Shown in pieces: positions 3,155-61,521 of a stretch of DNA of 64,000 nucleotides; within the stretch, counting starts at the first letter, position 1; every line of letters starts with the position of its first letter. This DNA is from Desulfuromonas sp. CSMB_57 (GTDB taxonomy: Bacteria; Desulfobacterota; Desulfuromonadia; Desulfuromonadales; Syntrophotaleaceae). Position numbers and translations under genes: made by a program. The notes below the pieces were generated by a model, which was not told the DNA's origin, did not search any database, and worked only from the letters and a program-made list of their open reading frames with translations. The stretch is from NCBI RefSeq assembly GCF_020194955.2, contig NZ_JAFCIY020000019.1, positions 1 through 64,000 of the forward strand, read 5' to 3'.

Positions 3155-3205
3155 TGTCAAGGGTCAGCGTTATTGAGCAGGGCCGGGGTCACGGTTATTG
3201 AGCAG
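3155..3205. repeat. Left terminal repeats of the IS21 element
   Basis: Two imperfect copies of a unit containing GGGTCA ... TTATTGAGCAG. The istB stop codon (TAA, complement of 3195-3197) lies inside the inner copy, so the coding region runs to the element end. Confidence 0.75.
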
Positions 3206-3986
3206 TTTGACCTTCGGTGTGCTCGGTTTGGTTGGTTGTCGGTGCCGGGGAATTCGGGCGCATCTTCTTCCGGTACGACTCTCCTTTCATGACGAAATGA
3301 TGGGCGTTGTGGGCCAGTCGGTCGAGAGCCGAATTGGCCATCACCGGGTCGGGAAACAGGGTGAGCCAGTCGGCCGGTGGCCGGTTGGAGGTGACGATGA
3401 TCGAGCCGCGCAGGTGACGCTCGGCGACGATTTCGTAGAAATCCTCGGCCTGGGTCATGGTCATCGGTTTAAGGCCGAAGTCGTCGATGATGAGCAGATC
3501 CGGGGCGAGCAACCGTCTCAGTTCGGCATCCCAGGAGTTGTCGGCGCGGGAGGCCTGCAGGGTACGGAAGAGCTTGACCGCCTTGAGAAACAGCACCGAG
3601 CGTCCACAGCGGCAGGCATGGTGACCCAGAGCTTGGGCGAGGTGGGTCTTGCCGGTGCCGGCGGGACCGTAGAGCAAGACATGCTCCCGGCGTTCGATGA
3701 ACAGACCGGTGGCCAGGTCACGGATGGCGGCGGGATTCAGGGTGGGGCTGCCTGCGAAGTCGAACTCCTCGAGAGTCTTGGGCTCCTCGAAGCTGGCGCG
3801 CTGCAGGCGCAGCCGCAGGCTCTGGGTCTTGCGGCGTTCGATCTCGTCCTGCAGCAGCAGTTGGAGAAACTCCAGGTAGCCGAGTTGGTCCTGGCGAGCC
3901 TGCAGCAGCCGCACATCGAGCGTGTCGAGCATGCGGCCGAGCTTGAGGGCCTTGAGCTGGCTGGTCAGGGCGGCGGTCGCGCTCAT
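3195..3986 (-). CDS. istB: IS21 helper ATPase IstB
   Basis: A 263-residue AAA+ ATPase of the DnaC/IstB type that helps the IstA transposase select and remodel target DNA. Walker A is GPAGTGKT (107-114) and Walker B is LLIIDDFG (164-171). The C-terminal SNRPPADW and sensor region fits the family. The N-terminal helical part (LKLGRMLDTLDVRL) resembles the domain that contacts IstA. Its ATG overlaps the 3' end of istA by 4 bases (3983-3986), the usual translational coupling in IS21 elements. Length is typical and no frameshift is seen. Confidence 0.95.
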   Translation of the reverse strand: MSATAALTSQLKALKLGRMLDTLDVRLLQARQDQLGYLEFLQLLLQDEIERRKTQSLRLRLQRASFEEPKTLEEFDFAGSPTLNPAAIRDLATGLFIERREHVLLYGPAGTGKTHLAQALGHHACRCGRSVLFLKAVKLFRTLQASRADNSWDAELRRLLAPDLLIIDDFGLKPMTMTQAEDFYEIVAERHLRGSIIVTSNRPPADWLTLFPDPVMANSALDRLAHNAHHFVMKGESYRKKMRPNSPAPTTNQTEHTEGQTAQ

Positions 3987-5539
3987 CGGGCCACCTCCTT
4001 GGCGGCAAAGCTCTCCGGCGGATGGAGAAAGCCCAAAGCCTGTTCGGTCAACGACGCCGGGCGCAGTTCCTGAGCGGAACGCCAGTAGAGGGGGATCCCG
4101 TTTTCCAGCACATGGGTCAGGCGACGCAGTTCGGTGGCGCCGAAGTGGAACAGATAATCACAGGCCTCGTCCAGCCGCCGGGGTCCGTACTTGTCAGCCA
4201 GGCGCAGCACGCCTTGCGCCTTGCGCAGGTTGCGGATGGCGTGGTCGGCGAGGATTTCCTCAACCATGCGGGCCACATGGGGGCCGAGTTCCGCAGCCTG
4301 TTGGCGGCAATACGCCGGATGGGCGAAGAGAAACGCCTTGGCGGCCTCTGGGTAGTCGGTTTGGTCGGTCACCCAACTGCCGCGCCGATTCGCCCGGGGA
4401 TGGGTCTTCACCAGGGCATCGTCGCAGTAGATTTCGACCAGCCGCCGGGTTGCCCGCACCCACACCGTTTTGCCGACAAAGCGGGTCGGCAGCGAGTAGT
4501 AGCTGCGTTCGAAGACCAGGTGATGGTCGGGATGGACCTTTGCCTCGGCCCAAGTCGGCGGGTCGAAGGGTTGCGCCGGCAGGGGCCGCAGGGTTGCCTG
4601 CTCCAACTGCTCGAAGCGCGCCATTGGCGCCTCGCAGGTGGTGCCGTGGAGTTCGCGTCCGACCTGCTCGCGGCACCACACAAGCGCCTTTTGGTTGAGG
4701 TCGGCCAGATCGACATAGCTGCGACCGGCAACCAGTTGCTGGCGCACTACCGGCACTTGGCGTTCCACCTTGCCCTTGTGCTCCGGAGTTGCCACCTTGG
4801 CGGGGTCGACCACGAAGCCATAATGACGCTCCAGTTCGGCATAAGCCCGGTTGATGGTGGGATCGTAGAGGTCGGGGCGGACCACGCCGGCTTTGAGGTT
4901 GTCGAGCAGGACCGTCTTGGGCACGCCGCCGAAGAACTCGAAGGCGCGCACGTGGCAGTCGAGCCAGTTCGGCAGGTCCTGCCGTTCGACGAAGCGCACG
5001 AAGCGATGGCGACTGAAGGAGAGCGTCAGCACGAACACCCACAGTTGTCGCACCTTCTCGCCGAAGCGTACCCGGGCGCTGCCGAAATCCACTTGGGCCT
5101 GCTGCCCCGGCGGTGTCTCGATTCGCACCGTCACCCTTGGCGTGATCGGCGCCAAGGTACTGTGGACAAAGCGTTTGACGCTGGGGTAGCTGAGCTTGAC
5201 GCCGCGCTCGCGCAGCAGGCGCCAGATTTGTTTCATGGTCATGTCCGGTTCCCCCAGCCAGGCCCGGATCTGCTCCTGGTACGGTGCCAGCCGTCGATGA
5301 GAAGGCGATGTTTGCACTGCCGGTTTCACTCCGGCAGCACGCATGGCCGCCAGCACCCGGGTGCGCTGGGCTTGATCGCCATCGCGAGTCGCCCCGTGTT
5401 TTTCGGCCAGTCGCAGGTACTTGCGTACCGTCTGTCGGGACTGGCCGAGGCTGCGGGAAAGTTGGGAGATGGTGTGCCCCTGCTGCCAGCGGTACATCAA
5501 CTCGTCGAGCTCAATCATGGGAATGGGCCTCCTTGCCAT
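3983..5539 (-). CDS. istA: IS21 transposase IstA
   Basis: A 518-residue transposase. It has an N-terminal helix-turn-helix (HTISQLSRSLGQSRQTVRKYL, about 22-42), then an RNase-H-like DDE core with D151 (QVDFGSA), D213 (LLDNLKAG) and E259 (HKGKVERQV), and a basic C-terminal region. It cuts and joins the element ends and works with IstB, whose gene overlaps it by 4 bases. The reading frame is complete, so the enzyme is probably functional. The start ATG at 5539 keeps the whole HTH. A second ATG lies seven codons later. Confidence 0.95.
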   Translation of the reverse strand: MARRPIPMIELDELMYRWQQGHTISQLSRSLGQSRQTVRKYLRLAEKHGATRDGDQAQRTRVLAAMRAAGVKPAVQTSPSHRRLAPYQEQIRAWLGEPDMTMKQIWRLLRERGVKLSYPSVKRFVHSTLAPITPRVTVRIETPPGQQAQVDFGSARVRFGEKVRQLWVFVLTLSFSRHRFVRFVERQDLPNWLDCHVRAFEFFGGVPKTVLLDNLKAGVVRPDLYDPTINRAYAELERHYGFVVDPAKVATPEHKGKVERQVPVVRQQLVAGRSYVDLADLNQKALVWCREQVGRELHGTTCEAPMARFEQLEQATLRPLPAQPFDPPTWAEAKVHPDHHLVFERSYYSLPTRFVGKTVWVRATRRLVEIYCDDALVKTHPRANRRGSWVTDQTDYPEAAKAFLFAHPAYCRQQAAELGPHVARMVEEILADHAIRNLRKAQGVLRLADKYGPRRLDEACDYLFHFGATELRRLTHVLENGIPLYWRSAQELRPASLTEQALGFLHPPESFAAKEVAR

Positions 5540-5652
5540 GGCGCCTCCTGTCGGGATTCAAATCCCGGCAGAATAAAGCCAAGGCGGCTGGGGAGCCCAC
5601 CGAAGATCAGGGCGGGGTGCTCAAAAACGCTGACCCCGCCTCCGGCAAAACT

Positions 5653-5734
5653 GCTCAATTAAGTTGACCCCGGGGTGCTCAATTCCGCTGACCCTGACCC
5701 GGGTCAAGGTGCTCAATTACCATGACCCTCGACA
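5653..5734. repeat. Right terminal repeats of the IS21 element
   Basis: Three imperfect copies of the unit TGCTCAATT-N5-TGACCC, inverted relative to the left end. They are presumed IstA binding sites, by analogy with other IS21 elements. Confidence 0.75.
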
Positions 5735-5774
5735 GGTACGGTATTTTGGAGGATCGAATTGCTGGAGGGTCATT

Positions 5775-5840: not shown

Positions 5841-5936
5841 CGAGAGCAATTGCATCAATGCAGCAGTTGGTCAGTTTTTGCGACACCATCAAATTTCGGG
5901 TATTCCCTTAATGCTCAAGCATGGCGAGGATTGCCT

Positions 5937-7181
5937 GTGAGACGGAGCGTAACAAGCCGGATACTCTGGTCATCCCTTGTGGTGGCCGCCTTTCTGGCGG
6001 TTGTCCAGAATGCTTGTGCCGACATGGGGCAGATCCATGCGAGTGATGCTGCCATCCGCGAGGACTCGCAGAAGGCGATCATCCTTCACAATGGAACGGA
6101 GGAGGTCCTGATCCTCGGCACCGACCTCAAGGGGGACCGGAAAACCGGCATCCTTCGCTTCATTCCCTTTCCTTCCGAACCCCGGATCACGAAGGCACCG
6201 GAAGCGACCTTTGACATCCTGGCCGAGGTGATGAAGAAACACCGCCTGCAGTTCCTGATGGCCAGCAAGGGAGGCGGAACAGAAGGCGCATCCGTGGAGT
6301 TGCTCCTCCACGAAAAACTTGGCTTCCACGACATGACCCTCATCAAGGTGAATGATGCCGCCCAGTTCAGGGCGTGGGTGAACACCTATTTCGAGAGGAA
6401 GGGGCTTCCCACCAAGGCGGAATACGTCACGGCCGAAGCGATTGTGGACGATTACGTGAAACGCGGCATTCCATATTTCGTCCTCGATTATGTGGAGGTT
6501 GCCGAGGAAACGCGTTTCATCGAACCGATTGCCTACCGGTTCGCCGGCAAGAGTCTTTACTACCCGCTCAAGACCTCGAATACCTTCGGCGGCAAGGGGG
6601 CCATTGAATTGGTTTTGCTTCTTCCCGGCACGCTTTGCAAGCCTTCGATTGGAGCCTATGAAAGCTGTCTCGGCCTCCCTGCCTTCAACCAGCACGTGCA
6701 GGTCAGCACTTCGGCCGCCGTGCCTGTCGACGATCTCGCACGAATTTATCCTGAAGCGGAAGCGTTTTTCGGCGGCCGTCAGGTCTTCATGCAGATGGTC
6801 AGCTACTGGGGCGATTATTCCTTTGACCGGGATATTATGGACGATCCGGGAAAAGCAATCCCCAAGGCTTACGGCCACGCCGAAGGGCAGCCCGCCAACC
6901 CGTGGCTGCTGCCTGGGGAGCAGATTGAGGTGGCTCTCGAGGAGAGGAGCCACGACACGCCCGCTCGGCAAGACCCCCGCTGTGCACTTCAACCCGATCC
7001 GGGCCCGTGCAAGGGTCTTTTCGAGAAGTATTACTTCGACATGGCTCAGGGAAACTGCAAGAAGTTTTTTTTCGGGGGCTGCCAGGGGACCGTGCCCTTC
7101 GATACCAGGGAAGCGTGCACGGCCGTCTGCCTTGGCGGGCAGGAACATTCAGATCACCGCGACGGGGAGATGTCAAGATGA
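5937..7181 (+). CDS. Secreted protein with C-terminal BPTI/Kunitz-type domain
   Basis: A 414-residue secreted protein starting at GTG 5937, chosen because GAGGA lies 7 bases upstream and a signal peptide follows at once (ILWSSLVVAAFLAVVQNACA, cleavage near residue 28). The central region (about 30-340) has features of the DUF2330 type, such as QKAIILHNGTEEVLIL and FIPFPSEPRI. That match is tentative. Residues 349-398 carry six cysteines (349, 358, 374, 382, 394, 398) spaced 9-16-8-12-4. BPTI has 9-16-8-13-4. The GPCKG, YYFD and FFFGGCQG motifs sit at the expected places. The P1-equivalent residue is K359, which in animal inhibitors gives trypsin specificity. This suggests an extracytoplasmic protease inhibitor or adhesion module. 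It is the first gene of a co-directional operon and overlaps the next gene by 4 bases. Confidence 0.85.
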   Translation: MRRSVTSRILWSSLVVAAFLAVVQNACADMGQIHASDAAIREDSQKAIILHNGTEEVLILGTDLKGDRKTGILRFIPFPSEPRITKAPEATFDILAEVMKKHRLQFLMASKGGGTEGASVELLLHEKLGFHDMTLIKVNDAAQFRAWVNTYFERKGLPTKAEYVTAEAIVDDYVKRGIPYFVLDYVEVAEETRFIEPIAYRFAGKSLYYPLKTSNTFGGKGAIELVLLLPGTLCKPSIGAYESCLGLPAFNQHVQVSTSAAVPVDDLARIYPEAEAFFGGRQVFMQMVSYWGDYSFDRDIMDDPGKAIPKAYGHAEGQPANPWLLPGEQIEVALEERSHDTPARQDPRCALQPDPGPCKGLFEKYYFDMAQGNCKKFFFGGCQGTVPFDTREACTAVCLGGQEHSDHRDGEMSR

Positions 7182-7570
7182 CACACAAGGGGCAAGTGAC
7201 GCCGGGAGGCCTGACGGTTCTGCAGGCAAAAATCGGCATCGTCGTGGTGGCACTGTTTCTGCTGTTCGGCCTGGGGTTCGGCTTTGTCGTTCTGCAGGAG
7301 ACTCCCGACTCCGAAATCGGCTTGAAACTCCTCATCGGCCTGTTCTTCCTTATCTGGGTCGTGGCCTGCTTGGCGATCATCGTCTTTTACGTCAGGATGT
7401 TGTCAAAGCGGGCATCCCCAACCGACAGCTCCCTCATCGATATTCACTTGGAAAAAACCAGTGGCTTTGATGAGCGCCTGCGCGCCCTGGAGGCCCTGAA
7501 AAACGATGGCCTGCTCTCGGAAATGGAATACCGGGCCAAGCGCGAGCAGATAATGAAGCAACCGTGGTAA
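7178..7570 (+). CDS. Small membrane protein with SHOCT-like C-terminus
   Basis: A 130-residue protein whose ATG overlaps the previous stop (ATGA) and is preceded by GGGGAGA. It has two TM helices (about 20-42 and 50-72) and then a short hydrophilic tail. The tail ends in a SHOCT-like helical motif, with LRALEALKNDGLLSEMEYRA followed by KREQI. SHOCT motifs are thought to mediate oligomerisation. Function unknown. The 4-base overlap implies translational coupling with the Kunitz-domain gene. Confidence 0.7.
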   Translation: MTHKGQVTPGGLTVLQAKIGIVVVALFLLFGLGFGFVVLQETPDSEIGLKLLIGLFFLIWVVACLAIIVFYVRMLSKRASPTDSSLIDIHLEKTSGFDERLRALEALKNDGLLSEMEYRAKREQIMKQPW

Positions 7571-7938
7571 TGGCACATGGCGCTGGCTTTTGGGACGACA
7601 TGGGTGATTTCTCGCGACAGCCCGGTAGGGAATTGAGGCGGTTGCCGCTGATGCTCGGCAAATTGCTGGGAGGCATGGCAGCGGTCATCGGGTTCGGAAT
7701 GGCGTCCTGGGTTGCGACCCACGGGAAAGGCGGGGATGTCTGGCCGCCGCTTTTGGCAGCGGTTGCAGGACTTGCGGTCTTCATGGTTTCGGAGAGGCGG
7801 CTGGCCAAACGAGCGCCCTCGACCGGAGCGCCTCCGTTGTCGCCCGTCGAGATGAAGAGATCGAGTTTTCTGGCCTGGTTGTTGCTTTTGCTGTTTGTCA
7901 TAGTCTTATTGCTTTGCATCCAGTTATTCCTGCAGTGA
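7570..7938 (+). CDS. Hypothetical membrane protein
   Basis: A 122-residue protein whose ATG shares a base with the preceding stop (TAATG). A GTG two codons upstream is an alternative start. The N-terminus is hydrophilic (GFWDDMGDFSRQPGREL). Three hydrophobic segments follow (about 30-50, 58-72 and 98-120), with the last at the extreme C-terminus. I recognise no family. Coupling to its neighbours suggests it belongs to the same membrane system. Confidence 0.6.
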   Translation: MAHGAGFWDDMGDFSRQPGRELRRLPLMLGKLLGGMAAVIGFGMASWVATHGKGGDVWPPLLAAVAGLAVFMVSERRLAKRAPSTGAPPLSPVEMKRSSFLAWLLLLLFVIVLLLCIQLFLQ

Positions 7939-7996: not shown

Positions 7997-8350
7997 ATGC
8001 CAAAGACATTAAAAATCATCCTGGTCATCGTCATTATTGCCATCGTGTGGGGAATTCTGGCCTCAATTGATGCCGGTCCGGCAGGTTTCGGGGTGATCCT
8101 TTCCTCGCTGGCTCTGCTGGATGTGGTCACGGGGGAGTTTAAGGGGAACAACAAGCTGGTCTGGCTGATAGTCTGTCTTGCAGGGCTGGCCTTTGCAACC
8201 GTTGCCCTTGGCAGCGTCATGATGACGACACCCACGGCGAACGGCAAACAGCCTCTGTATGTCCTGGCAACTACTGTCGCCATACTCCTTCCATTCGCCT
8301 ATTATCTGGTCGGCAGGGGGCAAAAAATTGGAAATACACATCGAGAATAG
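7997..8350 (+). CDS. Small membrane protein, PLDc_N-like
   Basis: A 117-residue protein with four predicted TM helices. The last (LPFAYYLVGRGQKI), preceded by a KLVWLIV-type helix, recalls the short membrane segment found at the N-terminus of phospholipase-D-type proteins (PLDc_N). No catalytic domain follows, so it would be a stand-alone membrane unit. A 58-base gap separates it from the upstream gene, and no strong ribosome site is visible. Family assignment is tentative. Confidence 0.55.
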   Translation: MPKTLKIILVIVIIAIVWGILASIDAGPAGFGVILSSLALLDVVTGEFKGNNKLVWLIVCLAGLAFATVALGSVMMTTPTANGKQPLYVLATTVAILLPFAYYLVGRGQKIGNTHRE

Positions 8351-8359
8351 GAAGTCCTT

Positions 8360-9235
8360 ATGAGACAGACTTGTTCTTCAAACAAGACAGCCGGGCTGAA
8401 GTTCGGCTTGAGGGTCGGCTTCATTCTCGTCATTGCGGCCTGCCTCTTTCTCTCCCAGAGGGGTATTGCGGTCGCGGAACAGGCGGTCTCCGAAGAGGCT
8501 TTCAGGTATTTCACCCGTGGCCTGGCGGCGGTGGAGATGGCACGCTCCATCTCTGATTTCGAAGCCGCCGCCCGGGAGATGGAAAATGCCAAACGGGCAG
8601 CGCCGCAGTGGCCGGATGTCTACTACAATCTGGGCTTGATCTATGAGAAGGCCGGCAATTACCAGGCGGCAATCGACAATATGCATACCTACCTGAAGAT
8701 CGTGCCCGGGGCTGCCGATGCCGATCAGGTTCGCGAGGCGATCTATCGCTGGCAATATCTGCACCAACGAAATGACGTCGGCGGAATCTGGAAGGCCGAT
8801 GTATCGGCTTCTCAGGTATCCTGCTCACCGACCACCTACCTGGTCACTGGCGACACGATACTGTTCAGCGGGTTTCTTTTCGATGACCTGCAACTCGAGA
8901 TAACTAACGGCCCTGATGGCAACCGGGGACGTATTCTGAGCAGCAAATTCCGGTATGGACACCTTCTTAAGGATGCGCCCTTTGCTCCGGTCAGACGGGA
9001 AGGGGAAGCCGTCATGATCGACAAGGCGTTCATGTATACCTGCGCGGCGAATGTCCAGCCTTCCCTGTGCCCCTGGGAAGCTACGTTCACCCTGCGTCAA
9101 ATCGCCGAAAACATTTTGGAGGGGGAATTATCTGCCGGCGGCTTCGGTCGGAATATGGATTTAAGAACCACGAGAAAGCAGGATGGATACCATCAATGTT
9201 CGGGCCGGATTGTTCTGAAGCGGGTCGGTCGGTAA
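8360..9235 (+). CDS. Secreted TPR protein (first paralogue)
   Basis: A 291-residue protein with an N-terminal signal segment (FGLRVGFILVIAACLFLSQ, about 15-38). Two TPR-like repeats follow at about 45-125 (EAFRYFTRGLAAVEMA, VYYNLGLIYEKAGNYQAAID). The C-terminal half (130-291) is beta-rich with several cysteines and matches no family I know. The N-terminal half is clearly paralogous to the gene at 10473, with shared FTRGxAAVEMA, YYNLGL and LxPGxADAD patterns. The C-terminal domains are unrelated at sequence level. TPRs usually bind partner proteins, so this may be a scaffold for the operon's products. Confidence 0.7.
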   Translation: MRQTCSSNKTAGLKFGLRVGFILVIAACLFLSQRGIAVAEQAVSEEAFRYFTRGLAAVEMARSISDFEAAAREMENAKRAAPQWPDVYYNLGLIYEKAGNYQAAIDNMHTYLKIVPGAADADQVREAIYRWQYLHQRNDVGGIWKADVSASQVSCSPTTYLVTGDTILFSGFLFDDLQLEITNGPDGNRGRILSSKFRYGHLLKDAPFAPVRREGEAVMIDKAFMYTCAANVQPSLCPWEATFTLRQIAENILEGELSAGGFGRNMDLRTTRKQDGYHQCSGRIVLKRVGR

Positions 9236-9249
9236 TACGGAGAGTGATC

Positions 9250-10470
9250 ATGAAATATGCAATCATCATTGGCCTGCTCATCCTGTCTGCCGTCGCGCAG
9301 GACGTTCGGGCCCTGGACGAACCGATGCTTGTCGAGTGCCGGTCGCAACTGGAGATGTGGCGAAACGACCGCATCACACCCGGCCTTGCCGAAAAGGCCA
9401 TGCAGATGGAATGCCCGGACCCTTACGCCCGAGTCATGCCTGTGTTCAAGAAGGCAACGTCTTCAAGCCCAAACGGCAGCCATCAGAGTTATGGGTCATC
9501 CCGGGACGACGAGGAGAGAGCGCGCCAGGAGAGGGAAAGACTAGCAAGAGAGCGGCTCGAAACAGAGCGGCAGCAGGCCTTCGACAAGGCAAAGCAGCAG
9601 TTGCTGCACTCCATCAAGGGGGGCAGTTCGGGGACCCCCGGCCTGGGGCTGAAAACCGCCGGATCGGCCGGTCAGGGGCTGGCCCTCAAGTCCGGCACCC
9701 CGCCGGTTGTTACTTCGACCGCTCAGACCAGCACCGCCGTTCGCCAGGAACAGCATGCGTTTGATAACACGCAGGCTGAGTGGCTGCGCAGACAGCAGGA
9801 ATTGATCCGGCAATCCGTTGCCTATGACAACAAGTGGCGCAACGAAGTACTGGCCTCCATCAAGGCGATCCGGGTGCCGAATCCCGCGGCTCGTCCCAAG
9901 GAATTGGAGGATCTGCGCCCCGGTGATGTGCTCCTGATCGGGCCGGATGATTCATCCGTCGCCGGTGCGATCAAGAGGGCCGACCCGCTTTACCGGGCGC
10001 TCGATTCCCTGGTTTCCCCCGCCAATGTTTCCAGTGAGGAGTTGAGGTATGGGAAGGCCTCACATGTTCTGACCTTTGTCCGGAAGGTCAAGGAAGAGCT
10101 GCTGTTCCTGGACCATACCCTGGAAGGGAGCCGGATCATCAACGAGGTGGAGTTGATACGCCGGTACGGCAATCGCCCGGTTTACATCGCCAAGCCCCAG
10201 GCGCAGGTCGATGGCAGGAAACTCTGGGAAGTCGCCCGCGAAGCCGCCCTGCAGAGGGCGTCGGATTACGGCCTGCTGGGCAGCAGCGTGGTGTGCTCGG
10301 AGCGGGCGGCGATCGCGGTGGCCAAGGCGACCGGTGTTGCCATGGACAAGGAGCGGCATCTTTTCGGCCTGGGGGCCGTTGATATCACGCCGGCCGACTT
10401 TTTCGACGACAAGCATGTCGGCAGGTTCTTCCTGGTCTCGACCCGGCCGATTGTCCTGAGGGGGAGGTAA
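9250..10470 (+). CDS. Secreted protein with permuted-papain (YiiX/NlpC-like) domain
   Basis: A 406-residue protein starting at ATG 9250 (GGAGAG just upstream; upstream in-frame ATGs are rejected because they overlap the previous gene). It has a signal peptide (YAIIIGLLILSAVAQDVRA) and then a cysteine-containing N-terminal part. A charged coiled coil follows (about 85-120, rich in ERERLARERLE), then a Gly/Thr-rich linker. The C-terminal domain (about 218-406) has the order LRPGDVLLIG, then H272 (KASHVLTFV), then C349 (SSVVCSERA). That matches the layout of the permuted papain-like amidases of the YiiX/YaeF group, so it may be a cysteine hydrolase acting on peptidoglycan, lipid or protein in the envelope. 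The assignment rests on motif order only. Confidence 0.6.
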   Translation: MKYAIIIGLLILSAVAQDVRALDEPMLVECRSQLEMWRNDRITPGLAEKAMQMECPDPYARVMPVFKKATSSSPNGSHQSYGSSRDDEERARQERERLARERLETERQQAFDKAKQQLLHSIKGGSSGTPGLGLKTAGSAGQGLALKSGTPPVVTSTAQTSTAVRQEQHAFDNTQAEWLRRQQELIRQSVAYDNKWRNEVLASIKAIRVPNPAARPKELEDLRPGDVLLIGPDDSSVAGAIKRADPLYRALDSLVSPANVSSEELRYGKASHVLTFVRKVKEELLFLDHTLEGSRIINEVELIRRYGNRPVYIAKPQAQVDGRKLWEVAREAALQRASDYGLLGSSVVCSERAAIAVAKATGVAMDKERHLFGLGAVDITPADFFDDKHVGRFFLVSTRPIVLRGR

Positions 10471-10472
10471 AC

Positions 10473-11255
10473 ATGCGGTTTCCGAATTTGCTGATGACCG
10501 TGACGTTGTGCATGCTTGGTTTTGCTGTTCAGGCCCTCGCGCAGGTGCCTGTGGGCGAGCAGGCCCGGCGCTACTTCGATCGCGGCACGGCCGCCGTGGA
10601 AATGGCGGAAACACAAAGCGATTTTGCAGCTGCTGCCAGGGAATTCGAGGAAGCTGTCCGCTTGGCGCCAGACTGGCCGGAAGCCCACTACAATCTCGGC
10701 CTGGTTCGCGAGAAGCTCGACGATCTTGAAGGTGCCGTCTCCAGCCTCAACCGCTACTTGGAACTGGCACCCGGTGTTGCCGACGCTGCCGCGGTCCGGA
10801 GCCAGCTCAACAAAATCGAGTACAAACGGGACAAGCGCGACGAGATGAAGCAATTTTTTGATATTCTGGCCCGACCGAACCACTCGAAGACCCTTGTTCA
10901 GGAGGAAGGTTCATGTTTGCAATGGACAAAGAACATGGTTTTATCGGGAAAGAAGATATTGATTATCAACAAGGTTAAACAAATGTATAATTTCAAAGAC
11001 ATGCGTGATTATGCGAGTGATTATTTCGAGGTTAATTTTGAAAAAAAGAAATATGAATATAAGGCAACACATTATAACTGCACAAAAGAAGTATCAAGAA
11101 CCTTGAATATTTCACCATACTGTCCATCGGACTCTATAGTTTCTGGAGAAGTATTGTCTTTTTATCCGATCACATTAAAAGAAGAAATATTAGTTATAGA
11201 CAGCTCGACAAAAAACCAGTTCAAGTGTAGTCAAGTATGGGAAGTCCGTGAATAA
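10473..11255 (+). CDS. Secreted TPR protein (second paralogue), chimeric composition
   Basis: A 260-residue protein starting two bases after the preceding stop, with AGGGGGAGG upstream. It has a signal peptide (LLMTVTLCMLGFAVQALA, cleaved near residue 23). TPR-like repeats at 28-110 are closely related to those of the gene at 8360. From about residue 145 the DNA changes abruptly. By hand count 10561-10620 has 40/60 G+C, while 10981-11040 has 18/60. The C-terminal part is Lys/Tyr/Ile-rich with four cysteines and is unlike any family I recognise. It looks like a swapped, recently acquired C-terminal domain on an older TPR platform. It is the last gene of the operon. Confidence 0.7.
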   Translation: MRFPNLLMTVTLCMLGFAVQALAQVPVGEQARRYFDRGTAAVEMAETQSDFAAAAREFEEAVRLAPDWPEAHYNLGLVREKLDDLEGAVSSLNRYLELAPGVADAAAVRSQLNKIEYKRDKRDEMKQFFDILARPNHSKTLVQEEGSCLQWTKNMVLSGKKILIINKVKQMYNFKDMRDYASDYFEVNFEKKKYEYKATHYNCTKEVSRTLNISPYCPSDSIVSGEVLSFYPITLKEEILVIDSSTKNQFKCSQVWEVRE

Positions 11256-14118: not shown

Positions 14119-16057
<1,939 letters not shown>

Positions 16058-16061
<4 letters not shown>

Positions 16062-16423
16062 CCGCGGAGAACCATCGCCCCCAACGCCCGGGCCAGGAGG
16101 CGCGCGAAGAGTTCCGGCGCCGGCTCGCCGCCAAGCGGGCCCGCAAGCTGCGGGCCCAGCGCCTGGGTGAACACCAGGCCTGGTTCGGGCTCGGCATGTT
16201 CGGGGTGGTGGGCTGGTCCGTGGCGATCCCGGCGGTGGCCTGCATCGCCCTCGGCGTCTGGATCGATCGGGTCAAGCCGGGACGCTATTCCTGGACCCTG
16301 ATGCTGCTGGTGGTCGGCATGGCCTTGGGATGCTTGAACGGTTGGTTCTGGCTGGTCAGGGAACGACGCATCATCGAACAGGAACGAAACCGCGAGGAGG
16401 GTGAAACCCTTGAGAAACATTGA
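16058..16423 (+). CDS. atpQ: N-ATPase accessory membrane protein AtpQ
   Basis: A 121-residue AtpZ-related protein. It has a highly basic N-terminus (EEFRRRLAAKRARKLRAQRL) and then two TM helices (about 45-68 and 76-98), followed by a charged tail. AtpQ is specific to N-ATPase operons and is thought to help Fo assembly or ion handling, together with AtpR. Position between epsilon and AtpR matches the canonical order. It overlaps both neighbours by a few bases. Confidence 0.85.
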
Positions 16424-16751
16424 CGGAGTCAAGCTGCTGGTCTCCCTGCTGGCCGGGCTGGGGCTCGGAGCCACCTATTTTGGCGCCCTGTGGTGGACGG
16501 TGCGGGAACTGCCCAAAATTCGCCGACCGCGAAGCTGGTTGGTGGGCAGTTTTCTGCTGAGGATGGCTCTCGCTCTGGTGGTTTTTTATTTTCTGTTGCG
16601 CTGGGGAATTCTGGCCATGGGCGCGGCCATGGGTGGTTTCCTCCTGGCGCGCATGGTCTGGCTGGGACTGAGCCTGCGCAACTCCCTGCGCGAGGACCTG
16701 CCCGACGATAGCCATGAAAATTCACAGGCCAATCATGGACATCAGCCCTGA
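16410..16751 (+). CDS. atpR: N-ATPase accessory membrane protein AtpR
   Basis: A small protein with three TM helices (LLVSLLAGLGLGATYFGALW, SFLLRMALALVVFYFLL, MGAAMGGFLLARMVWLGL). The family carries conserved arginines in TM2 and TM3, and both are present here. It is found only in N-ATPase operons and is thought to interact with the c subunit. The start is uncertain. TTG 16410 has GAGGAGG 9 bases upstream, while GTG 16401 is too close to it. The C-terminus overlaps atpB. Confidence 0.82.
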   Translation: MRNIDGVKLLVSLLAGLGLGATYFGALWWTVRELPKIRRPRSWLVGSFLLRMALALVVFYFLLRWGILAMGAAMGGFLLARMVWLGLSLRNSLREDLPDDSHENSQANHGHQP

Positions 16752-17448
16752 CAGCGTCGTTCTCTGGCAATGGCAAGGTCTCAAGCTGAATGCGACCATG
16801 CTGCTGACCTGGCTCAACATGCTGCTGCTCACCGGTGGCGCCTGGCTGGTGACGCGCCGGGCGCGCAGCGATCACAGCCTGGAGCGGCGCCAGCATTTTC
16901 TGGAAGCCCTGGTGGTCGGCATGGAACGGCAGGTTCGGGCCATGGGATTGTCGCCGCCCCGGGAGTTCCTGCCCTTTATCGGCACCCTGTTCCTGTTTGT
17001 GCTGTGCGCCAATCTGCTGGCCATCATTCCCGGTTACGAAGCACCGACCGGTTCCCTTTCCACCACCACCGCCCTGGCCCTGTGCGTGTTCGTTGCGGTT
17101 CCCCTGTGGGGCATACAGCGGCGCGGGCTGCGCGGCTTCCTCAAGCTTTACCTGCAGCCGTCGCCCCTGATGCTGCCCTTCAATCTCATGGGCGAACTGT
17201 CCCGGACCCTGGCCCTGGCCGTGCGCCTGTTCGGCAACATCATGAGCGGGGCCATGATTGGCGGCATCCTGCTGGCCGTGGCGCCGTTGTTCTTTCCGGT
17301 CATCATGCAGCTGTTCGGACTGCTTACGGGAACCATACAGGCCTACATCTTTGCCGTGCTGGCCGCCGTGTACATCGCCGCCGCGGTCCAGGTGGAACAG
17401 CAGCGGGAAACCGGCGACACAACGAAAAAAGGAGATGCGCATGGATAA
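16714..17448 (+). CDS. atpB: N-type ATPase Fo subunit a
   Basis: A 244-residue membrane subunit forming the ion half-channels next to the c-ring. The essential arginine lies in ELSRTLALAVRLFGN, followed by the conserved IMSGAMIGG helix. About five TM helices fit subunit a. It overlaps atpR by 38 bases if the first ATG is used. ATG 16735 (MDISPDSVV) is an equally good start with a smaller overlap. Its 3' end overlaps atpE. Confidence 0.93.
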   Translation: MKIHRPIMDISPDSVVLWQWQGLKLNATMLLTWLNMLLLTGGAWLVTRRARSDHSLERRQHFLEALVVGMERQVRAMGLSPPREFLPFIGTLFLFVLCANLLAIIPGYEAPTGSLSTTTALALCVFVAVPLWGIQRRGLRGFLKLYLQPSPLMLPFNLMGELSRTLALAVRLFGNIMSGAMIGGILLAVAPLFFPVIMQLFGLLTGTIQAYIFAVLAAVYIAAAVQVEQQRETGDTTKKGDAHG

Positions 17449-17725
17449 CCTTGCTTGGGTGGCGGTTGCCTCCATCATGTCAGCCGGGCTCTGCATCGGC
17501 ATCGGCGCCATCGGTCCGGCCCTCGGCGAAGGGCGGGCTCTGGCCCAGGCCCTGGCGGCCCTGGCTCAGCAGCCGGACGAGGCCAACTCTATCACCCGGA
17601 CCCTGTTCGTCGGCATGGCCATGGTCGAATCCACAGCCATATACTGCTTTGTGGTGACCATGATCCTGATCTTCGCCAACCCTTTCTGGCAGTTCTTCGT
17701 GGAACGGGCTGCAACGGGGGGGTAA
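17441..17725 (+). CDS. atpE: N-type ATPase Fo subunit c
   Basis: A 94-residue, two-helix proteolipid that forms the rotor ring. Helix 2 has V62-E63-S64-T65 and Y68 (MVESTAIY), matching the Na+-binding E-S-T/Y pattern of sodium-type c subunits. Helix 1 has E30 (ALGEGRAL) where the Ilyobacter Na+ ring has Gln. Each subunit therefore carries two carboxylates, the signature described for N-ATPases. The loop is AQQPDEAN. AAAGGAG precedes the ATG, which lies 8 bases inside the atpB frame. Confidence 0.95.
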   Translation: MDNLAWVAVASIMSAGLCIGIGAIGPALGEGRALAQALAALAQQPDEANSITRTLFVGMAMVESTAIYCFVVTMILIFANPFWQFFVERAATGG

Positions 17726-17728
17726 ATC

Positions 17729-18520
17729 GTGCTTATCGACTGGTTCACCGTCGGCGCCCAAGCGGTCAATTTCCTGATCCTGGTGGTGCTGCTGAAGCGG
17801 TTTCTGTACGGCCCGATCCTGCGTGCCATGGAGAGCCGCGAGGCCCGGCTGGCGGAGCGCTTCGCCGAAGCCGAACAGGCCTTGGAGCGGGCTCGGCAGG
17901 CCGAGGCCGAGTTCCGTCGTCAGCAGCAGTCCCTGGAGGAGGCGCGGGGCGAACGTCTCAGGGTCATTGAAGAGGAGGCGGAACAGCGCCGCAAGGAACT
18001 GGTGGCCGCGGCCCGTGCCGAAACTTCGTCCTTGCGGGCGGCCTGGCTGGGCGCCCTGCACAGCGAGCAGGAGCTGTTCGGACGAGAACTGAAAAGGCGG
18101 GTGGGGCGGGAAGTCCTGCATATCGCCCGCAAGTCCCTGGCGGATCTGAGCGATGTCGAACTGGAACAGCGACTCGTGGAACGTTTCACCACCGGACTCG
18201 CCGCCCTGGCAAGCAAGGAGCGCGAGCAGTTGGCCGCTACCGGTCGCAGCGACGGCCTGACGGTGCGCAGTTCCTTTGAACTGCCGGAGTCCCTGCGCAG
18301 CCGGTTAAGGAACGGTTTGGAGGCGCTGCTGGAGCATGAGGTCAGGGTACATTTCCACACCGATTCGGAGTTGCCCCTGGGCATCGAACTGGCGGTGGGC
18401 GGCCTGAAGCTTTCCTGGGGGGTGGACAGCTACTTCGAAACCTTGCAGGAAGCCGTGGACGAGTTGTTCGAGAGCCAGATCGGCACCCCGCCCGAGGCGG
18501 CGCCAGAGGAACCGGCATGA
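17729..18520 (+). CDS. atpF: N-type ATPase subunit b (b/delta-like, long form)
   Basis: A 263-residue stator subunit. It has an N-terminal TM ([20 protein letters not shown]) and a long charged coiled coil (about 30-110, rich in [15 protein letters not shown]). The C-terminal globular region (about 150-245) resembles the end of the delta subunit. N-ATPase operons lack a separate atpH, and this extended b protein probably does both jobs. The start is GTG 17729, three bases after atpE, with a run of G just upstream. It overlaps atpA by 4 bases. Confidence 0.9.
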
Positions 18521-20103
18521 AGACCACGGACCCCGGTTTGGACCATGTTCTGACAACGACCTTCGAGTGCCTGCGGGAATCCGTCGACGGTTTCAAGCCC
18601 GACCTGGAGCTGCAACGCATCGGTTGGGTGGAATCCGTCGGCAAAGGCATCGCGCGGGTCAGCGGCCTGCCGGGAGTGCAGTCCGAAGAACTTCTCATGT
18701 TCCCCGGCGGGCTGCCGGGACTGGTTTTCAACATCGAGCCGGAACGCGTCGGCGTGGTGTTGTTGGGTGATTATGCACACCTGGAGGCGGGGGACGAGGT
18801 GCGGCGCAGCGGCCGGGTGCTGGATGTGCCCGTCGGGGAAGGTCTCATCGGCCGGGTTGTGGATCCGACCGGTCGGCCCCTGGACGGCGGGCGCCCCCTG
18901 AGCGTGCCGCAGCGCTGGCCGGTGGAACGGGCGGCACCGGCCATCATGGACCGGCGGCCTGTCAATCAACCCTTGATGACGGGTATCAAGGCCATTGATG
19001 CTCTTATCCCCATCGGCCGCGGCCAGCGCGAACTGATTCTCGGCGACCGGCAGACCGGCAAGACCGCCATCGCCGTGGACACCATCATCAATCAGCGCCG
19101 GCAGGAGATGCTGTGCGTCTATTGTGCCATCGGCCAGCGGGCCGCCAGCGTGGCCGGCGTGGTGGCGCAACTGCGGGAACACGGGGCCATGGAGTACAGC
19201 ATCGTGGTGGTTGCCGAGGGCGACGCGCCGCCGGGATTGCAGTACATCGCCCCCTATGCCGCCACCACCATCGCCGAATATTTCATGCGGCGGGGCCGCG
19301 ATGTGCTCATCGTTTATGACGATCTGACCCGCCATGCCCGCGCCTACCGGGAGGTGTCCCTGCTGCTGCGGCGGCCGCCGGGGCGCGAAGCCTTTCCCGG
19401 TGATATCTTCTATGTGCATTCACGGCTGCTGGAGCGCGCCACCCGCCTCAACCAGAATCTTGGCGGCGGCAGTCTGACGGCTCTGCCCATCATTGAAACC
19501 GAGGCCCAGAACCTGGCCGCCTACATTCCCACCAATCTTATATCCATTACCGACGGCCAGATTTACCTGTCACCCGAGCTGTTCCAGAAGGGCCTGCTGC
19601 CGCCGGTGGATGTGGGCAAATCCGTATCACGGGTCGGCGGCAAGACCCAGTTGCCGGCCTACCGCGCCGTGGCCGGGGATCTGCGTCTGACCTACAGCCA
19701 GTTCGAGGAACTGGAAGCCTTCTCCCGCTTCGGCACCCGCCTGGACGAGGAGACCCGGCGTATTCTGGCGCGCGGTCGCCGCGTGCGGGGCATTCTGCGG
19801 CAGCCGCAATTTTCACCGCGCAGCGCCGCCGAACAGGTGCTGGTGCTGCATGCCGTCAACAGCGGGGTGTTCGATGAAGTCGAGGAAGCCGATCTGGTCG
19901 AGGCCGAGGCCGCGGTCTGCGGCGCCGTGGCCGAAGTGCCGGAGACGGCGGCACTTATCCAGGCCGGAGAAAAGCTCACCGATGAGGATCTGCGGGCTCT
20001 GCGGCAGGCCGCGCAGCATGCCGTAAAGCATCTGCACAACCAGCGGGAGAAAACCGATGCCGGCTCTGCAGGATCTGCAACGCCAGATCAAGAGCGCCGC
20101 TGA
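18517..20103 (+). CDS. atpA: N-type ATPase F1 subunit alpha
   Basis: A 528-residue nucleotide-binding but non-catalytic alpha subunit. The Walker A loop GDRQTGKT is at 176-183 and the Walker B region is [12 protein letters not shown]. The [19 protein letters not shown] and [13 protein letters not shown] segments are conserved. It overlaps atpF by 4 bases, and its last 47 bases are shared with the start of atpG in another frame, an unusually deep overlap even for this operon. Confidence 0.96.
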
Positions 20104-60372: not shown

Positions 60373-61521
60373 ATGCAGTGCCCCAAATGCGGCCATGAAC
60401 AGGAGTCGACGGCCAGTTGCGAAGCCTGCGGCCTGGTGTTTGCCAAATTCGAACGCCGGCAGGAAATGTTGCACCATGCCGCTCCCCCGCCGGCGGAAAT
60501 CCGGCCTGACGGACGCGGGTTGCGGATCTGGTGGCTGGTGGGCTTGGCCGTCTTGTTGGGCCTGGGTGCCGGACGCTGGCTGTGGCGGCCGGCGGGGCCG
60601 CCGCCGGTCATGGTGGCCGATAGCGCGGAACCGGCTTCCGTCGCCGATGCCGTTGCGCCTGGCGAGGGCCCGCGGAGCGTAGGATCGCCCGTTGAAAAGC
60701 CGGGCGCCGAACCGGCGGCTTCGGCCGCGTCGGCGGTGCTCGATAACCCCATCGAGCGGGCCCGGGATGCGACGGTGGTCATTCGCACCCCCTGGGGCAG
60801 CGGCGCCGGTTTTTTCGTGGACGGTCAAGGCCATATCATCACCAACCGCCATGTGGTGGAATTCGATGGGAGCAAACTGAACGCCTTGCGCGAGCATTTG
60901 AGCCGGCTGGAAAAGGCCCTGGCCGAAGAAAAACGAAGGATGGAGCAACTGCAGCGCGACCTGGCAGGCATCACCAATCAGGACTGGCGCCGCCAGGTCG
61001 AGAGCCGCATCGCCCATGGTCGGGAACAGATTCGCAAGTACCAGGAACTTCACGATCAAATGGAAAGCACCCGGCGCACGGTGGAATATTACACCCCTTT
61101 GTCGGATCTGCGCGTGATCCTGGTGGACGGTCGCGAACACCGCATCAACGCGGTGCACCTCAGCCGCAATCTCGATCTGGCACTGCTGTCCCTGCAGGGC
61201 GGCAGCGGCGGTATAGCGCCCCTGCGCCCCAATCCGCACCCCCTGCCTCAGGGGGCCCGGGTCTATACCATCGGCAACCCCTCCGGCCTGCGGCACACGG
61301 TGACATCCGGCATCGTCTCCGGCTATCGGCGCACCGAACGGGGTCTGCTGGTGCAGACCGACGCGCCCATCAATCCCGGCAACAGCGGCGGCCCCCTCAT
61401 CGATGAAGAGGGCCGGGTGGTCGGTGTCAATACCCTGCTGTTGCAGGACGCCCAGGGGATCGGCTTTGCCATTGCCGCCCGGGAGGTCTGGCAGGAGTTT
61501 TCCGGACGGATAGCCCCCTGA
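60373..61521 (+). CDS. Zinc-ribbon, membrane-anchored trypsin-like serine protease
   Basis: A 382-residue protein. Residues 1-20 hold two CxxC pairs (CPKCGHEQ, SCEACG), a zinc-ribbon. One TM helix follows (WWLVGLAVLLGLGAG, about 52-70), then a Pro/Ala-rich linker. The protease domain has H160 (NRHVVE), D268 (LDLALLS) and S338 (NPGNSGGPL). Between His and Asp sits a charged coiled coil (about 165-240), which DegP-type proteases lack. The ribbon would be cytoplasmic and the protease periplasmic. GGAGAAG precedes the ATG. No PDZ domain is present. Confidence 0.88.
   Translation: MQCPKCGHEQESTASCEACGLVFAKFERRQEMLHHAAPPPAEIRPDGRGLRIWWLVGLAVLLGLGAGRWLWRPAGPPPVMVADSAEPASVADAVAPGEGPRSVGSPVEKPGAEPAASAASAVLDNPIERARDATVVIRTPWGSGAGFFVDGQGHIITNRHVVEFDGSKLNALREHLSRLEKALAEEKRRMEQLQRDLAGITNQDWRRQVESRIAHGREQIRKYQELHDQMESTRRTVEYYTPLSDLRVILVDGREHRINAVHLSRNLDLALLSLQGGSGGIAPLRPNPHPLPQGARVYTIGNPSGLRHTVTSGIVSGYRRTERGLLVQTDAPINPGNSGGPLIDEEGRVVGVNTLLLQDAQGIGFAIAAREVWQEFSGRIAP

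Follow-up and report, generated by a model that had tools for sequence, protein, structure and literature searches.

The 64,000-nucleotide stretch of DNA analysed here (hereafter the window), from contig NZ_JAFCIY020000019.1 of Desulfuromonas sp. CSMB_57, encodes a protein whose body is a DUF2330 domain and whose C-terminal part, encoded by positions 6978-7133, is a true Kunitz/BPTI domain. Kunitz inhibitors are usually treated as an animal family. We favour, at a probability of about two in three, the reading that this bacterial protein is a secreted (periplasmic or extracellular) inhibitor of foreign lysine-cleaving proteases, possibly double-headed, a role predicted from sequence and from structural models.

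The Kunitz domain can be recognised by eye in the C-terminus of the open reading frame (ORF) spanning 5850-7181 on the forward strand, CALQPDPGPCKGLFEKYYFDMAQGNCKKFFFGGCQGTVPFDTREACTAVC. A sequence-only reading of the window had reported six cysteines spaced 9-16-8-12-4, GPCKG, YYFD and FFFGGCQG motifs and a lysine at P1; direct reading of the sequence confirmed the spacing, from Cys1 at 6981 to Cys6 at 7130, and all of the motifs and the P1 lysine are present. The corresponding spacing in BPTI is 9-16-8-13-4. HMMER scored the domain at 48.8 bits against PF00014 (cut-off 21; E = 8e-13), and a phmmer search of PDB with the domain alone returned SmCI (E = 1.7e-24), TFPI (3.5e-18) and APPI (8.3e-14) as well as boophilin. 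The predicted fold agrees: the Kunitz segment of an AlphaFold2 (AF2) model has a predicted local distance difference test (pLDDT) score of about 95 and was superposed by VIA-align on TFPI-K2 and APPI with Z about 8 and a root-mean-square deviation (rmsd) of 1.4 (1.4-1.7 for Kunitz matches in general), whilst Foldseek gave a probability of 1.00 and a TM-score to target of about 0.8. The best solved matches are APPI, TFPI and BPTI, and complexes with trypsin, mesotrypsin and FXIa are among the best fold matches; with all six cysteines present, the fold match suggests disulfide pairing 1-6, 2-4, 3-5 in the modelled domain. The one-residue shortening that had been placed between Cys4 and Cys5 is real: the PDB alignments put the extra residue of the solved relatives there, and nearly all of those relatives are one residue longer than the window domain over the phmmer spans.

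That reading had also called Kunitz domains rare in bacteria. They are indeed of a rare but known kind, but in this lineage they are sporadic rather than exceptional, with credible copies in 18 of the 277 genomes of the host's class. A nineteenth genome (G108) also scored against PF00014; its match lies in a short, stop-containing piece antisense to a long gene and was discarded as spurious on inspection. In a sample of the whole phylum, nine of 395 genomes scored, amongst them G439, whose match lies inside repeats on the opposite strand and was likewise discarded, and G551, where inspection by eye found a real but degenerate copy. Animal contamination is ruled out by the bacterial operon context, by the presence of this loop in bacterial homologues and by a separate position in the tree. 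In that tree (53 columns), 27 bacterial domains split with support of 100/97 from nine animal domains, the latter taken from the phmmer PDB alignments plus the published BPTI sequence; an alignment this short, with no more than nine animal rows, neither dates nor polarises a transfer. The bacterial domains group largely by architecture and less by host family. The plasmid and phage records held no match to the Kunitz domain, and no relatives were found in the viral contigs searched.

The same 27 domains, drawn from 23 genomes, were aligned to assess conservation, with a 28th (L056) kept as a separate copy. Twelve columns are invariant across the 27, including the six cysteines, the P1 lysine and the proline and glycine of the first loop; the glycine before Cys4 and the Pro-Phe pair after the shortened loop are invariant too, and P1' is always Gly or Ala. 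Mean column identity is 63%, and the P1 lysine is nonetheless invariant. The short Cys4-Cys5 loop is a family-wide trait rather than a peculiarity of the window copy, being present in 27 of the 28 domains (the loop is longer in L057); in L054 and L055, Cys5 and Cys6 lie one residue closer together. P1 is likewise lysine in 27 of 28, the sole exception being the degenerate domain at L056:6004-6156, where Gly-Ser replaces Cys2-Lys and Ser replaces Cys4 within an open, lipoprotein-like ORF. In BPTI the Cys2-Cys4 pair braces the bait loop, and the joint loss of this pair and of the P1 lysine in L056 is what would be expected if the disulfide serves the bait.

Four architectures occur: DUF2330-Kunitz, ankyrin-repeat (Ank)-Kunitz, a small secreted protein in which a conserved C-terminal domain follows the Kunitz domain, and a small Kunitz protein encoded beside a SPASM radical-SAM gene. 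The host genome carries a second, intact Kunitz gene, whose product has ankyrin repeats and ends in a Kunitz domain; it adjoins a DUF2330 fragment cut short at a transposase gene and a gene homologous to that of the SHOCT-like membrane protein encoded next to the window Kunitz gene. Amongst the small proteins (L038:5887-6426, L039:1012-1446, L040:12213-12650 and L042:6472-7005), three of four share a KYGxVGxRDFEN-like C-terminal motif. SPASM radical-SAM genes adjoin the small Kunitz genes in L040 and L042, with homologous ORFs in L038 and L039, and it is possible that a Kunitz protein undergoes peptide modification there. The conserved C-terminal domain (DPVEDDPRYAEVF...DWRTPAELNPxVxFD) lies behind a Kunitz domain at L040:5287-5850 and in L043-L046 and L048-L052; a Parabacteroides plasmid protein matches this C-terminal domain (DPVEDDPRYAEVF...) only, at 35.5% identity. 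L040:1-19001 is a 19-kb island whose three Kunitz genes represent three architectures; it also encodes a serpin, TPR proteins, an ankyrin protein and a vWA/YfbK protein.

A second inhibitor family, the bacterial serpins (PF00079), whose fold is unrelated to Kunitz, is found near Kunitz genes outside the window, in four Kunitz neighbourhoods (L010, L011, L040 and L046). All four serpins carry the inhibitory hinge EEGTEAAAATA in their reactive loops, and P1, located by its distance from the hinge as for alpha-1-antitrypsin, is lysine in L010, L040 and L046 and threonine in L011. Seven serpins in the class have a P1 lysine: two come from genus g72, some members of which also carry Kunitz domains, and the other five from genomes with a Kunitz domain. 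Among the remaining class serpins that we read, the P1 residue is Thr, Gly, Ala, His or Ile. Six of the 277 genomes have both serpin and Kunitz genes, where 1.3 would be expected (hypergeometric p = 0.0007), a value that overstates independence because the genomes are related.

Kunitz domains with a P1 lysine and P1' alanine or glycine are canonical inhibitors of trypsin-like enzymes. Like that of BPTI, the Kunitz loop would dock in substrate-like fashion in the active site of a lysine-cleaving serine protease of the trypsin type and would inhibit it in a reversible manner. This protease probably comes from another organism—a predator, competitor, grazer or host—and the gene belongs to sporadic Desulfobacterota islands in which Kunitz proteins of several architectures are accompanied by small membrane proteins, serpins, and ankyrin and TPR proteins. 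We prefer a foreign target because the trypsin-fold (S1) peptidases of the host genome are three in number and all HtrA/Deg-like, and no caspase relative of family C14 was found in the genome at the thresholds applied. These three enzymes, one of which is encoded in the window (60373-61521), are what would favour a protein that regulates an envelope protease of its own cell, such as HtrA/Deg. We give this idea very little credence, since such enzymes prefer a small or aliphatic P1 rather than lysine, their genes lie outside the operon and close relatives lack the Kunitz gene. Protection against foreign proteases is the best reading, and it gains support from the invariance of the P1 lysine and from the neighbouring serpins.

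The sequence-only reading had described the rest of the protein as not Kunitz-like, which was right: its body matches DUF2330 (PF10092) at 25.7 bits, marginally above the cut-off of 24.7 and over the first 200 positions of the profile, and all ten homologues that were scanned match the same profile. The full-length AF2 model has a mean pLDDT of 73.4, and VIA-align placed P35 at the top for its N-terminal part (Z 10.8), ahead of the Kunitz matches. Folded alone with ten relatives, DUF2330 gave a predicted template modelling score (pTM) of 0.82 and aligned to P35 (1p35) with Z 13.1 and rmsd 3.7 over 215 of 295 residues; the runners-up were a Legionella protein (4g2a, Z 10.1) and domains of oligosaccharyltransferase, aminopeptidase and inter-alpha-inhibitor (6.5-8.5). 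Against the viral models of BFVD, the best match was a granulovirus P35/P49-like protein (E 1.9e-7), with a Tupanvirus protein and entomopoxvirus proteins, including a P35 (E 1.1e-5), also found. The P35 link comes from VIA-align and BFVD, as Foldseek against PDB gave no match at E <= 0.001, just GFP-like noise with rmsd above 15. The DUF2330 profile found no match among PDB sequences, and DUF2330 none in plasmid records. The evidence that the predicted DUF2330 fold resembles baculovirus P35 is thus good but indirect. Neither the window protein nor its homologues match PF02331 in hmmscan to E = 10, and DUF2330 is not filed as a member of the P35/P49 family of caspase inhibitors (PF02331, MEROPS I50).

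With P35 and P49 the window protein shares, besides the predicted fold, a flexible loop after the first helix. P35 is cleaved after Asp87 in its flexible loop (DQMD), and its Cys2 helps to trap caspases (PMC7863939). Since the DUF2330 model (residues 2-278) and P35 (2-299) align nearly end to end, Lys83 of DUF2330 falls near Asp87 of P35, and the loop around it, where pLDDT is below 50 and the model amongst its least certain, may correspond to the P35 bait loop, a match that we infer from the collinear alignment ends and the helix order only. An [ST]-K-x-G pattern recurs there, with the lysine in seven and the glycine two positions on in eight of nine full rows; a tenth, more distant member (L091) has a lysine in the loop, though in another setting. 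Unlike P35 and P49, this is a secreted bacterial protein with Lys-Gly rather than Asp-Gly: an Asp bait at P1 was not found in the presumed reactive loop, where a conserved lysine stands instead, and the predicted mature N-terminus, DMGQIH, contains no cysteine equivalent to Cys2. Such a lysine would not suit caspases and would suit Lys/Arg-specific enzymes. The loop could be a second bait, although this is a weaker inference than that for the Kunitz loop. In its fullest form, this would make DUF2330 a bacterial branch of P35 whose bait had changed from Asp to Lys, directed at Lys/Arg-specific cysteine proteases (clan CD) or similar enzymes whilst the Kunitz domain dealt with serine proteases, the two forming with the P1-lysine serpins a multi-family anti-protease island of Desulfobacterota against lysine-cleaving enzymes of predators or competitors. 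We regard this scheme as tentative and rather unlikely.

At L087:1324-2919, and also in L089 and L091, DUF2330 is followed by an F5/8-type-C-like module (20.7 bits, below the cut-off, in L087) and there is no Kunitz domain. With such a module in the place of Kunitz, DUF2330 can be seen as a carrier of exchangeable C-terminal modules, and it has yet others in L041 and L053. This swapping is what a non-inhibitory binding module (for adhesion, matrix or receptor) would lead one to expect, with DUF2330 and the ankyrin repeats doing the work; several animal Kunitz domains bind channels or matrix, and L056 remains an open ORF after losing Cys2, Cys4 and the P1 lysine. We nevertheless consider a purely binding role unlikely: a pure scaffold would let P1 drift, whereas lysine is retained in all but one of the domains, and P1-lysine serpins are present in three of the islands.

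Several observations, besides the relatedness of the genomes that share serpins and Kunitz proteins, weigh against the inhibitor reading. The host genome has no serpin at E <= 0.001, its DUF2330 paralogue is truncated at a transposase gene, and none of 13 other sampled members of the host's family has a Kunitz domain. A sister locus, L012, is about 98% identical to the window in the Kunitz gene and about 98-99% over the region, near-identity that makes the two genomes close relatives. The L012 gene (L012:6082-6684) has nevertheless suffered two in-frame deletions relative to window positions 5937-7181: one of 483 bp (window 6402-6884) and one of 165 bp (6962-7126), the latter exactly 55 codons that take out the Kunitz domain, and the L012 genome has no other Kunitz match. 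That the domain was lost in so close a sister shows it to be dispensable. L012 is in this sense a natural domain-loss variant, with the operon around the gene otherwise kept. These losses, together with the IS21 element just upstream, could be taken to mean that the gene was recently acquired and is decaying, with no current role in the strain. We think this decidedly improbable, as the window ORF is unbroken, the next gene begins within its stop codon (ATGA, 7178), every cysteine and the P1 lysine are kept, both L012 deletions are in frame and the genome holds a second, intact Ank-Kunitz gene. The trait is accessory, which fits a defence or interaction factor and is compatible with decay as well.

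The gene and its surroundings are listed in Table 1. The GTG at 5937 is preceded by a Shine-Dalgarno-like GAGG a few bases upstream, and translation from it opens with a typical predicted signal peptide, MRRSVTSRILWSSLVVAAFLAVVQNACA, followed by DMG; the same signal-peptide start is present in L012, the homologues L009, L041, L054 and L055 are organised in this way ahead of DMG, and the AF2 model places a hydrophobic helix (residues 2-21) in this region. Homology between L012 and the window resumes at about 5735, the edge of the IS21 element. Homologues of the first downstream membrane protein adjoin Ank-Kunitz genes in L008, L010 and L011 and a DUF2330-Kunitz gene in L041; its match to a 2TM (two-transmembrane) effector in an anti-phage library is weak (18.1 bits) and was not taken as evidence. 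Further along (8360-11255), a paralogous pair of secreted TPR proteins flanks the F32 protein, the C-terminal half of which is conserved. The F32 family is common to the window and L009, a DUF2330-Kunitz locus, and in L009 homologues of the TPR proteins and of the F32 protein again lie beside the DUF2330-Kunitz gene. The window F32 protein has no Pfam match and no solved relative in PDB; a suspected likeness to NlpC/P60 found no support from either, and the protein is left unnamed. Beside the Kunitz operon lie F-type ATP synthase genes (14251-20103; beta 14251-15684, B 17729-18520, alpha 18517-20103), the order of which suggests an alternate (N-ATPase-like) operon.

Table 1. Features of the DUF2330-Kunitz gene and neighbouring genes in the window
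Feature	Position	Strand	Remarks
IS21 element	3195-5735	-	istA 3983-5539, istB 3195-3986; inserted just upstream of operon
DUF2330-Kunitz gene, 414 aa	5937-7181	+	GTG 5937 likely start; ORF open from 5850 (TTG)
Predicted signal peptide	5937-6020	+	Cleavage between ACA and DMG, read from sequence
DUF2330 domain, predicted P35-like fold	6021-6887	+	PF10092 and AF2 model
Candidate bait loop after first helix, QFLMASKGGGTEGAS region	6249-6296	+	Domain residues 77-92; Lys83 codon 6267-6269
Kunitz/BPTI domain	6978-7133	+	Cys1 6981 to Cys6 (ends 7130); P1 Lys codon 7011-7013
Small membrane protein, weak SHOCT-like C-terminus	7178-7570	+	SHOCT 17.8 bits, below cut-off
Small membrane protein, family F5	7564-7938	+	Same operon as Kunitz gene; no Pfam match
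Small membrane protein, family F19	7997-8350	+	In the operon; homologues adjoin Ank-Kunitz genes in L010, L011
Secreted TPR protein, family F7	8360-9235	+	Downstream of Kunitz gene
Secreted protein, family F32	9247-10470	+	Listed ORF 9067-10470, later start likely
Secreted TPR protein, family F7	10473-11255	+	Second TPR protein downstream

Set beside APPI, TFPI, bikunin, SmCI and BPTI (PF00014, MEROPS I2), the window domain has the same six cysteines and fold, the GPCKG/A loop with its P1 lysine, and the YFD and F-GGC motifs. It differs from the animal domains in its fusion to DUF2330, and the bacterial domains as a group differ in the Cys4-Cys5 loop, which is one residue shorter and reads x-Pro-Phe where animal domains have Asn-x-Phe. 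The DUF2330 members scanned match PF10092 as the window protein does; the latter adds a Kunitz tail. In the literature searched we found no description of this gene set, architecture or neighbourhood and no mention of DUF2330. An Acinetobacter baumannii Kunitz protein, F6W77, inhibits FXIa and FXa according to a 2024 study (PMC11511053), which provides the experimental precedent: a Kunitz protein, ascribed to a bacterium, that acts as an inhibitor. It too is a secreted bacterial protein, and a basic P1 was proposed as the key to its inhibition of coagulation proteases; its Kunitz domains, however, are five in tandem and carry Arg or Leu at P1, and no DUF2330 domain is described (PMC11511053).

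The Desulfobacterota proteins form a distinct bacterial branch of the Kunitz family, found in anaerobes, with its own loop length, a nearly fixed lysine bait, several architectures and a link to serpins. For DUF2330, the function of which is undescribed, the predicted fold provides a first structural lead and raises the possibility that the P35 fold has a relative outside viruses. The branch also allows a direct test of whether bacteria shield themselves with animal-type inhibitors against foreign proteases.
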